From: Rubripirellula obstinata
Lineage (GTDB): Bacteria; Planctomycetota; Planctomycetia; Pirellulales; Pirellulaceae
Length of the DNA stretch: 64,000 bases
Assembly: GCF_001642955.1 (NCBI RefSeq)
Contig: NZ_LWSK01000001.1
Location: 124,001 to 188,000, forward strand
Direction of reading: 5' to 3'
The notes under the pieces are model-generated. The model was given only the letters and a program-made list of their open reading frames with translations. It did not search any database and was not told the DNA's origin. This document shows, in pieces, positions 2,051 through 62,625 of the stretch. Position numbers and translations under genes: made by a program. Each line of letters opens with the position of its first letter. Within the stretch, counting starts at the first letter, position 1.

Positions 2051-2225
2051 GCGGGGCTTCAACGTGTTGGAGAAAGAACGAACAAGGGACATCGATTGCC
2101 CACAGTCTAACGAAATACTCCATGTCGTTGGTGCCCTCAAGCAAGACACGTCAACAATGTCGTTCCGACAGTGTTACCAGAGTCGATGTCGAAACGGTGC
2201 TGCGAATGTTCCGCTGTGCGACGGC

Positions 2226-3224
2226 TTACGCGTTTCGATTCTTCTGCGGGCGTCTTGGTTTGCCGCCGGCGATGAATTTTTGCATGGGTGCGGGTAGCGG
2301 GGAGTGGAACGTTAGGTCTTCGCCGGTAACGGGATGGGTGAAACCGAGTGTCTTTGCGTGCAGGGCGATTCGTTTGCGGACCCAACGCGGGTGAGTTGCT
2401 TTTTCGGTTTCGTATCGTGGGTCGCCTAAAACAGGATGCCCGTTGCTGGCGAAGTGGACTCGGATTTGATTTCGTTTGCCGGTTTCCAAAACCGCTTCGA
2501 CCAGCGTGGTGTCGTCGAATCGTTTATCGACCTTGAAATGCGTGATCGCTTCTTCGGTATCTTTCGATGGCGGTGCCTCGAATCGATCCAGGTTTTTGCC
2601 GGTCTTTAAGTGCGATGTGAACGTGCCTTCATCTTTTTCGACCAAACCGGCCACGATCGCAGCGTAGACTCGACGCGGTTTCTTGGCCTTGAATTGTTCG
2701 ATCAACAGCTCACCCACGGCATCATGTTTGCCGAAAACCAGCAACCCGCTGACGCTTCGATCTAATCGATGCACCAGAGCGGCTTCGCGATTACGTCGCG
2801 AATGGCTGATGTAGACCGACACTCGCTGCCACAGCGTATTGGTTTCCTCGCCTTGATCGGTTGGCACCGTCAGCGTCCCGGCGGCTTTGTCGACAACGAT
2901 CAAATCGTCATCCTCGAAGATCACTGAAAAGGTGCGATCATCCCAGCGAGGTTTCTTTTTTTCGCGATAGCGTTGATCCGGGTTGTATCGCAGCGAAACG
3001 ACGTTGCCTTCGGTGACTGGTGTCCCGGCGTCAAGGCAGGTGACGCCATCGATCGACACGCAGTCGTAATCGAACATGCCTTTGACTTGGCTGTGCGAGG
3101 ATCCGCTCAACTGGCGAACGACGGCATCAACGCGACCAGCGGTGGTGGCGTCAACGGTGGCGGAGAGGTTTTTCATCGGTGATTCCGTCTGAGTTTTCTT
3201 CGGTGTTTTCATCTGAGTTTTCAT
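2226..3224 (-). CDS. RluA-family RNA pseudouridine synthase
   Basis: Isomerises uridine to pseudouridine in rRNA or tRNA. The N-terminal part (about residues 25-85) reads like an S4 RNA-binding domain, and the catalytic domain carries the family signature HRLDRSVSGLLVF at about residues 152-164, with the catalytic aspartate in HRLD. A second conserved stretch, GKRNQIRVHFASNGHPVLGD, lies near residue 255. Several in-frame ATGs lie at the 5' end (3224, 3212, 3176); the longest is given, but the start at 3176 (MKNLSATV) is just as likely because the first 16 residues are Lys/Thr-rich and unconserved. The C-terminus ends in basic residues. The exact target uridine cannot be told from sequence; it belongs to the RluC/RluD-like branch rather than TruC with certainty only at family level. 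Confidence 0.92.
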   Translation of the reverse strand: MKTQMKTPKKTQTESPMKNLSATVDATTAGRVDAVVRQLSGSSHSQVKGMFDYDCVSIDGVTCLDAGTPVTEGNVVSLRYNPDQRYREKKKPRWDDRTFSVIFEDDDLIVVDKAAGTLTVPTDQGEETNTLWQRVSVYISHSRRNREAALVHRLDRSVSGLLVFGKHDAVGELLIEQFKAKKPRRVYAAIVAGLVEKDEGTFTSHLKTGKNLDRFEAPPSKDTEEAITHFKVDKRFDDTTLVEAVLETGKRNQIRVHFASNGHPVLGDPRYETEKATHPRWVRKRIALHAKTLGFTHPVTGEDLTFHSPLPAPMQKFIAGGKPRRPQKNRNA

Positions 3225-4044
3225 CTGGCGCAGTGTAACAAGGTTGACTGATTCCAGAAGTAATCGTGTACAATTGGAGTTCGCCCTGGGCCGCTAAATC
3301 ATTGGGGTTGACTGCATTTACGTGGTTTAGTTTTGCATTCCTGTTCAACAGGCCGGAGGCCGACACATTTTTGCCGGTGCGTCAGCCACCGGAATGATTG
3401 AGACAAGAACCGCTAGCCCGGAGGGCGACACAACGAAGGCAATCTGCCGCCCTCTGGGCTATTGGATTCGCTTTTTCCGTGGACCGGTGGCTTGACGCCA
3501 CCGGCAAAGATCTGCCGCCCTCTGGGCTAAGACCTTCGATGGTGAGACAGGATAAAAACGGCGCAAGCCGATAACTCCACAACCCCAAACTTTTAGCGGA
3601 CCAGGCGATGCCCCAATGCCACTTACGATAGCCCCGGACGGGGCGTCAGCACGGTGCCGTGGGCTTTGGCCCACGGGAGCCAAACGCAGCAAAAACCCAA
3701 GCCCCGGCAGGGGCGGCAGCGAGCATTCATCGGTTCGATTACCCCTCCGGGGCAAACCATCTTTTCTGGTCGGCCACCGGCAAAGTGCTATGACCCCTCC
3801 GGGGCAGTTCAGTGTTGAAAGCAAGTGCCATTAGGCGATGCCCACGCGGTTCGGCGGTTGAGTGCCACATTATGCCGCAATCAAAACCGGGAAGTTGTTT
3901 CGTGACAGTTCCTTAGGCTCGACCTCTCCCAAGAGGAGAAGTAAAATACCGCGAAAAACCCCAGTTTTCAAAACAGTTGACGGCTATTGGGTGGCGTTCA
4001 ACGAGAAGTGTCGGAAAAAGTGACTATAAAAATTCGCACGTTCC
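3225..4044. repeat. 820-bp intergenic mosaic of dispersed repeats
   Basis: No convincing gene. The stretch is built from pieces found elsewhere in the window. 3411-3460 holds an inverted pair (gctagcccggagggcgac against gccgccctctgggcta), with ccaccgg/ccggtgg arms around it. 3543-3600 is the reverse complement of 16991-17044 (shared core ggcgcaagccgat / atcggcttacgcc). 3601-3860 matches 62360-62525 (gccccggacggggcgtcagc with acggtgccgtgggc) and is bracketed by ggcgatgcccc fragments of the GTTTAACCGCG family. 3884-3914 is a reversed copy of the ggaactgtcccgaa element seen at 41067, 46756, 48148 and 62183. 3950-4035 resembles 41268-41300 and 41464-41490, and gactataaaaattcg (4022-4036) recurs at 17328-17342. 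Confidence 0.8.
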
Positions 4045-15571: not shown

Positions 15572-16106
15572 TAGTGGATCTTGTTAAGACGCGCCCGACA
15601 AAAGTCCGAACAGGCAAAATATGGTTTCCTTCAAAAACCGGCGCGTTCGTTTTGAAGTTGTATTTTTCGAGAGTGCCGGAGGCACGATAGCACCTAGCCT
15701 GGGGCGTCAGCCTACGCCGTGAAGAGTTTTGGTCTCGGAAAACACGTGTTAGTTCGTTTAGCCGCGTGGGCATCGCCCCGCGCGTTTCGCCCCGCATGGA
15801 CGCGCGGGGCGATGCCCACGCGGTTAAACAGTCCAGAAACCCTTCACGGTGTCGCCCCTCCGGGGCTTTGCAGAAATGCGGTACTCGATTTCCTGGGGCT
15901 GACGCCCCAGGCTAAGTGCTGCCGCCACTTCGTGGCTAAAAAAACGCAACTTCGAAACGCGTAAGATGTAACGATGATTTGCAAGGGCGTCGAGCGTGAT
16001 GACGCAAGGGACGGATGAGAGTCCCTCGCTCACGCTTCGGGTTACTTTTGTCGGGCGCGTCTGTTAAAGATCCTCCCGCGGCAAGGATCTTTAACAAGAT
16101 CCACTA
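15572..16106. repeat. Concentric nested palindrome (535 bp)
   Basis: Four inverted pairs are arranged one inside the other. Outermost: tagtggatcttgttaagac then gcgcccgacaaaagt at 15572-15605 against acttttgtcgggcgcgtct (16044-16062) and ttaacaagatccacta (16091-16106). Next: gcgcgttcgttttgaagttg (from 15641) against caacttcgaaacgcg (to 15961). Next: tagcctggggcgtcagcc (15695-15712) against ggctgacgccccaggcta (15897-15914). Core: gtttagccgcgtgggcatcg against cgatgcccacgcggttaaac, the GTTTAACCGCG element (15714-15852). The right outer arm carries an extra 28-nt hairpin (gttaaagatcct ... aggatct, 16063-16090). No coding sequence or transposase is inside. Confidence 0.88.
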
Positions 16107-17044: not shown

Positions 17045-17071
17045 ATGCGACACAAGCGTGCGACTTTTTAG

Positions 17072-17330
17072 AGTCGCGTTTCGCTCGGGACGTTGCATCA
17101 GTTACTGCGTGTTAGGCCCGGAGGGCCGGCAGCTCCCTGCCGGGTGCGTGAGCACCCGGATGGCTGCCCCACATCAATTCTCTGGCTCGGTTTCGCGGCT
17201 ACGCCGCGAAACCGAGCCAGAGAATTGATGTGGGGCAGCCATCCGGGTGCTCGCGCACCCGGCAGGGAGCTGCCGGCCCTCCGGGCCTATTGCGCAGTAA
17301 CTGATGCGACGTCCCGAGCGAAAGGCGACT
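17072..17330. repeat. Near-perfect giant palindrome with 128-nt arms
   Basis: Left arm 17072-17199 and right arm 17203-17330 are reverse complements around a 3-nt centre (tac, 17200-17202). The innermost run of about 55 nt (from ccacatcaattctctgg to the centre gcggctacgccgc) pairs without a mismatch. Differences are few: tg/cg next to agcacccgg, a 4-nt bulge region (tgtt against attg) near 17110 and 17290, and single changes at the outer end. It begins 104 bp past the receiver-domain gene stop and ends at the 3' end of the small PspA-linked gene. No coding content is apparent. Confidence 0.97.
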
Positions 17331-17760
17331 ATAAAAATTCGTACGTTCCTAACGCGTGTTTTCCGGGGCCAAAACTCTTCACGGCGTTGGGTAACCCGCC
17401 GGGCATCAGTGCAATGTCGTCATTGAAAACAGACATACTTCTCGGATCGTGTTTGCCAGACGTGATCAACTGTCCGACACTGTTGCCATCGTTACCGTCT
17501 TGCTGCACCGTCAAAATGCTGCGTCGCTGTGATCCTCCCTGTGAACCTCCCTGTGAACCGTCCAATTGATAGGTTAGGACTGTTCCGTTCGTCGTGTCGT
17601 CAACCTCGCGCCGAAGCACTTCGTACGACTCGCCTCGGATCACGAACCGGTCGCCGACTTGCAAGGCCAGCAGGCGACCGGTGGTGGGTGAAACGCGGAT
17701 GCGATCGGTGTAATACCAAGCGGCGATCAGGTCACGAATTGTGGCGACAATTTTGGTCAT
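17329..17760 (-). CDS. Small protein downstream of pspA, with a repeat-derived C-terminus
   Basis: A 143-residue protein of unknown family, starting at the ATG at 17760, 8 bp after the pspA stop. The N-terminal 60 residues (MTKIVATIRDLIAAWYYTDR, then LLALQVGDRFVIRGESYEVL) form a plausible small beta domain. The middle has a QGGSQGG low-complexity patch. The last 30 or so residues (NAVKSFGPGKHALGTYEFL) are encoded by DNA that matches the flank of the GTTTAACCGCG repeat (17347-17383; compare 15714-15745 in reverse), so the original stop was probably lost or the gene was extended by repeat insertion. Role presumably linked to PspA, by position only. Confidence 0.65.
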   Translation of the reverse strand: MTKIVATIRDLIAAWYYTDRIRVSPTTGRLLALQVGDRFVIRGESYEVLRREVDDTTNGTVLTYQLDGSQGGSQGGSQRRSILTVQQDGNDGNSVGQLITSGKHDPRSMSVFNDDIALMPGGLPNAVKSFGPGKHALGTYEFL

Positions 17761-62120: not shown

Positions 62121-62625
62121 CCAAAGCACTTAGCTGGACAACGCCACTTCGATCAGCCGCCTCACTACCGAGGACGTCCAGCTTAGGAACTGTCCCGAAA
62201 CAAGATCCGTCTTTGGCGACATCTTTCGTAGCTGGGCCCGCCAGGGTTCAGTCGGGTTTACGAAGCGTTTCCAAATTGTTTAACCGCGTTGGGCATCGCC
62301 CCGCGCGTCGCGCGGCCCGGCAGCGCGCGGTCCGGCGTCGCGCGGCCCGGCAGCGCGCCGGGCGATGCCCCAATGGCACATACTTTAGCCCCGGATGGGG
62401 CGTCAGCACGGTGCCGTGGGTCTTGACCCACGGACTCAAACACAACAAAAACCGAAGCCCCGGCTGGGGCGAAAGCGAGCAAGTTTCGGCGTGGTTGCCC
62501 CTCCCAGAGTTCCTCCGGGACTAGCGGAGTCTGGCCGTCATCATGGTCAGGATCCAAGCTGGCCGCAGGCGAACGCCTAGCGGCTGATCGTCTCGTAAAA
62601 GGCGACTCTAAATAACCGCCGGTTC
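62121..62625. repeat. 505-bp convergent intergenic region with three repeat families
   Basis: 62183-62227 is the ggaactgtcccgaaacaaga element, followed directly by 62228-62256 (left half of a GGGCCCGCC inverted repeat) and by a GTTTAACCGCG palindrome at 62257-62372 with extra gcgcggcccggcagcgcgcg repeats in its middle. 62360-62525 matches 3601-3760 (gccccggatggggcgtcagc, acggtgccgtgggtc). No gene is recognised. Confidence 0.8.

Follow-up and report, generated by a model that had tools for sequence, protein, structure and literature searches.

A near-perfect palindrome of Rubripirellula obstinata as a candidate copy of a dispersed element with Acido-Lenti-1-like units and a putative Y1 transposase partner

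The near-perfect palindrome found in the analysed stretch of Rubripirellula obstinata DNA (64,000 nt; hereafter, the window) is a member of a high-copy dispersed repeat family and is not unique. We consider it, with a probability of roughly two in three, to be a copy of a dispersed non-autonomous element in which two inverted multi-hairpin units surround a central hairpin, the element being spread by a Y---Q--HH transposase and the symmetry of this particular copy arising from two joined halves of the same type.

The arms of the palindrome (17072–17199 and 17203–17330, 128 nt each) enclose a TAC centre at 17200–17202 and are complementary at 122 of 128 positions. An earlier note on this DNA, which described a near-perfect 259-bp palindrome with 128-nt arms and a 3-nt centre, is borne out with six mismatches in 128 positions; the unbroken inner run that it put at about 55 nt is present, with a measured length of 50 nt. 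The palindrome also lies where the note had placed it, between a receiver-domain gene and a PspA unit, at the convergent 3' ends of the former (PF00072) and of an ORF adjoining the PspA gene (PF04012). Folded as single-stranded DNA, the segment 17030–17370 reaches −200.5 kcal/mol, compared with −65.9 ± 4.2 kcal/mol for 100 shuffles, and the fold is therefore far beyond chance. The features of the palindrome and of a neighbouring inverted pair are listed below, with A and B denoting the two kinds of arm in the family, and with scores for the Rfam model RF01687 and for R1, a model trained on 16 units, of which the transposase locus L068 described further on supplied three.

15672–15717, minus strand: unit of the neighbouring RF01687-type inverted pair
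15760–15830, unstranded: central hairpin of the neighbouring pair, module W3, 71 nt
15892–15937, plus strand: the other unit of that pair; above the RF01687 cut-off at 54.4 bits
17039–17363, unstranded: full inverted repeat with its weaker outward extension; arms of 161 nt, 89%
17061–17109, plus strand: outer part (Ao) of the left A half
17114–17159, minus strand: left multi-hairpin unit, RF01687-like; RF01687 35.6 bits (gathering 37), R1 70.8 bits (training sequence)
17170–17232, unstranded: central palindrome common to many copies, inside which contigs of the genome often end
17200–17202, unstranded: 3-nt centre (TAC)
17243–17288, plus strand: right multi-hairpin unit; RF01687 30.7 bits, R1 68.8 bits (training sequence)
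17292–17352, minus strand: outer part (Ao) of the right A half, ending in CGTTCCTAA
17349–17381, minus strand: module W2, the edge of a second repeat family, at the right end

Searched against its own genome, the 259-bp query returned at least 84 BLAST matches with 40 of 278 candidates scored. Pattern searches placed the A unit at 81, the B unit at 92 and the A outer arm at 56 sites in the genome, and the reversed control patterns of all three at none. Sixty stretches picked from these places were examined together with the window copy (61 sequences). The standard order is outer A, A unit, central palindrome, inverted B unit and outer B, and the 27 facing arm pairs comprise 26 A/B, a single A/A (the window) and no B/B. 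The centre, usually about 71–86 nt long, is shortened to 22–49 nt in some A/B copies; relative to the A arm, its 3-nt loop is TAC or GTA depending on the copy, through either real inversion or assembler choice. Outer A and outer B have common TTAGGAACG termini in inverted orientation. A units are present in the genome without outer arms as well, and at the start of one contig (L101; G000:C240) about seven A units form a tandem array with a period near 67 bp. No empty site of the element was found. The exact arm patterns had no match in collections of genome contigs and viral contigs, nor did blastn of plasmids match the palindrome, the own genome being possibly excluded from these searches. 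Beyond the own genome, the right-flank DNA gave one weak 36-nt match in 39 relatives, and PspA matched in 5 of 24 relatives at 22–29% identity.

The A/A symmetry of the window copy probably reflects two A halves joined across their shared central hairpin, because the arms are nearer to other loci than to each other and many contigs end in that same hairpin. The arms differ from each other at 9 of 62 outer positions, against a median of 6 between other copies, and closer relatives exist elsewhere for both, at three differences for the left arm and one for the right. Several contigs terminate within the central palindrome, approached from either side. Judged from these sequences, joining by the assembler is more likely than joining in the cell, and misassembly, the objection that the earlier note had itself raised, is the simplest and likeliest cause of the symmetry. 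Inverted duplication in situ was rejected as an origin, the arms not being copies of each other. Gene order around MoaE and QTMAN in genomes of the genus, compared as a test of the contig join, is conserved at best in three-gene blocks per side, so that the distance between those blocks is uninformative on the join.

A palindrome truly present in the chromosome, formed where two A/B copies recombined at their palindromic centre, with a B/B junction as the other product, is an unlikely but serious alternative. The assembly does run through the palindrome within a 249.7-kb contig, and no canonical SbcD was found above cut-off in the genome, but A/A accounts for just one of the 27 resolved pairs and B/B for none, the arms resemble two joined loci, and contigs end repeatedly in the same centre. 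SbcCD removes long palindromes. The sole SbcD match is a 449-aa ORF whose score, 62.8 bits when the genome was searched and 61.9 bits for the whole protein, is under the TIGR00619 cut-off of 77.65 bits, so that a canonical SbcCD is not established. The earlier note's view that maintenance of the palindrome suggests either a function or a recent origin is half right: what occupies the site is a mobile-looking member of a dispersed repeat family, not a functional palindrome specific to this locus. Perfect symmetry makes a weak argument here, since 26 of the 27 resolved facing pairs are of the imperfect A/B type and the one A/A copy resembles two different copies joined. As a caution, where a draft genome contains such repeats, its "perfect palindromes" may consist of two joined half-copies.

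Within each arm of the palindrome lies a 46-nt multi-hairpin unit that comes close to the Rfam family RF01687 (Acido-Lenti-1, of Rfam type sRNA). With 35.6 and 30.7 bits, both units are under the gathering score of 37 and are therefore classed as RF01687-like only. Across the genome, RF01687 has at least 65 matches, at least 24 of them above cut-off (150 of 1057 candidates scored), and it has none in 14 control genomes. In an alignment of 16 units (14 distinct), 9 of 16 base pairs change on both sides, and the covariation score was reached by none of 500 shuffles; helix 2 is poorly supported, at 61.9% paired. The foot of the A unit is mostly TTAG or ATAG and does not conform to the GT[AG]G tetranucleotide. 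Of 58 units picked for correct orientation, 49 begin with A and 48 have G as their second base; beyond the edges of these units the base composition is flat, with no conserved bases. Rfam matches to miRNA families, all under gathering, were discarded as reflecting hairpin shape, and a loop-loop pairing within the unit, considered by eye, was dropped on finding its register not conserved. Elsewhere in the window, the edge module of the neighbouring RF01687-type pair (15650–15960) also adjoins several A/B copies, and more R1 units lie at 3350–3806 and 62387–62433 (29.3, 39.9, 32.4, 21.8 and 29.5 bits).

Units of this type are associated with one kind of Y1 (IS200/RAYT-like) transposase. The own genome has 11 Y1_Tnp matches, among which L068 (G000:C244:37252–37701) is the only one seen with Y---Q--HH (YIENQVDHH), and it sits inside an array of RF01687-type units. 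In a first set of 39 Y1 loci, 11 from the own genome and 28 from relatives, R1 matched at its threshold of 20 bits in eight. Seven of the nine loci with the strict Y---Q--HH motif carried such matches versus one of the 30 others, and in that exception, L178, the reading frame breaks near the motif. Classed by eye, the same 39 loci gave R1 at 8 of 14 that are subclass-1.2-like, leaving six without it, and at none of the remaining 25. Control DNA from the same genus (647 kb) held no R1 match above 13.3 bits; in a further 353 kb of control DNA, taken from genomes that have positive loci, seven matches reached at least 20 bits, and every one of them lies in L205, the contig that carries L178. Two further Y1 genes (L073 and L075) are flanked by tandem GTAG-type palindromic repeats, and at L069 a Y1 transposase region is present as a tandem duplicate (589–1728 and 2201–3340) with 99.3% identity.

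The association extends to genomes unseen in the first set. A GTDB scan with seven Y---Q--HH proteins matched at least 585 stretches, the best 80 of which were kept. The strict motif occurs in 70 of these best 80 loci. R1 reaches at least 20 bits at 55 of the 80, and Rfam's own RF01687 model its gathering score at 30; either model matches at 56 loci and neither at 24. The nearest units within 250 nt of the gene number 44 upstream (38 on the minus strand) and 36 downstream (34 on the plus strand) in the best 80, and 72 of these 80 flanking units are thus inverted and outward (p 5e-14, kinship ignored), a p-value that is optimistic, as are the others of the survey, because related loci are not independent. 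Most of the nearest units at these best 80 loci are 45–95 nt from the transposase gene, and match density declines from 2.66 per kb in the first 250 nt around the gene to 0.07 per kb at 1–2 kb. Sorted by phylum from record titles, R1 is found among the best 80 of at least 585 in Planctomycetota (32 of 39), Verrucomicrobiota (9 of 17), Acidobacteriota (5 of 9), Pseudomonadota or Desulfo/Delta (5 of 7), Bacteroidota (1 of 5) and others (3 of 3). The pair in the window has the polarity minus then plus, the same as that of units bracketing transposase genes.

The best reading of these sequence patterns is that the RF01687-type unit acts as a REP-like DNA end for Y1 transposons. A Y---Q--HH Y1 transposase, in the own genome putatively L068, would recognise the folded single-stranded unit and could spread it in the way that RAYTs may spread REPs. 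The element in the window would then be a non-autonomous inverted pair, organised like a BIME or REPIN, and two A halves joined across the common central hairpin would yield the near-perfect palindrome. Naming L068 as the mobiliser of the A/B element is a guess, because the A unit differs at several positions from the unit flanking L068 (alignment A2); no outer arms of the A/B element were seen beyond the unit at L068. At slightly better than even odds we place the wider proposal that Acido-Lenti-1 is the terminal DNA hairpin of cross-phylum, hairpin-bracketed Y---Q--HH Y1 transposons, and that planctomycete genomes can carry large swarms of non-autonomous inverted pairs, some of them seen as long near-perfect palindromes in drafts.

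That the RF01687 units are instead functional small RNAs or terminators, their closeness to transposase genes reflecting gene regulation, appears improbable. Rfam lists RF01687 as sRNA, the compensatory changes suit RNA and single-stranded DNA equally, and a 2026 paper suggests, in the part consulted, regulation of neighbouring genes (PMC13298647); the units, however, flank the gene on both sides in inverted orientation with sharp outer edges, and the own genome contains arrays of them and dozens of copies. Still less probable is that the A/B element belongs to a cut-and-paste (DDE) transposon as its MITE, with TTAGGAACG ends and with the inner RF01687 units as older passengers. The inverted TTAGGAACG termini on outer A and outer B speak for this, but no target-site duplication was recognised in the copies' flanks as inspected by eye, and A units exist without outer arms.

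Should the transposon-end reading hold, a family listed by Rfam as sRNA would become the ends of a mobile element, and the Y---Q--HH transposases would gain the partner structures that they had lacked. Readings such as the regulation of proteases in Tannerella, suggested for Acido-Lenti-1 in the consulted part of PMC13298647, would also change. A search of one paper library found no paper linking Acido-Lenti-1 to Y1 transposases.

The closest known systems include REP, BIME and REPIN sequences with their RAYT (TnpA_REP), which likewise comprise short palindromic units in many copies, inverted pairs and a flanking Y1 gene; canonical REPs are the subject of PMC3733652 and PMC8266576, and RAYTs may spread REPs according to the portions of the cited literature consulted. 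High-copy dispersed palindromic units are found in the own genome, and a cognate Y1 gene flanked by the same unit is found at the level of the unit superfamily (L068, and 55 of the best 80 of at least 585 loci), the exact A unit aside. A REP or REPIN unit is, however, a single hairpin of 20–40 nt with a GT[AG]G foot, whereas the unit here is a 46-nt multi-hairpin matching an Rfam sRNA family. L068 shares the Y---Q--HH motif of TnpA_Y1 subclass 1.2; in the sections of PMC6006769 consulted, that subclass generally lacks typical IS200 terminal structures and occurs mainly in Cyanobacteria and Bacteroidetes, whereas most loci here have bracketing units and, among the best 80 of at least 585, belong mostly to Planctomycetota and Verrucomicrobiota. 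TnpA_Y1 class 3, as described in the same sections, resembles the present system in its occurrence in Planctomycetes and Acidobacteria, its atypical flanking hairpins and its high copy number in Solibacter, but differs in its Y----Q motif and CnGA foot, the proteins here having Y---Q--HH. Acido-Lenti-1 RNA itself shares the 46-nt model, which is over gathering at at least 24 places in the own genome and at 30 of the best 80 of at least 585 loci; it is listed as a candidate noncoding RNA in the part of PMC2864571 consulted, whereas we read it as the putative DNA ends of a mobile element.
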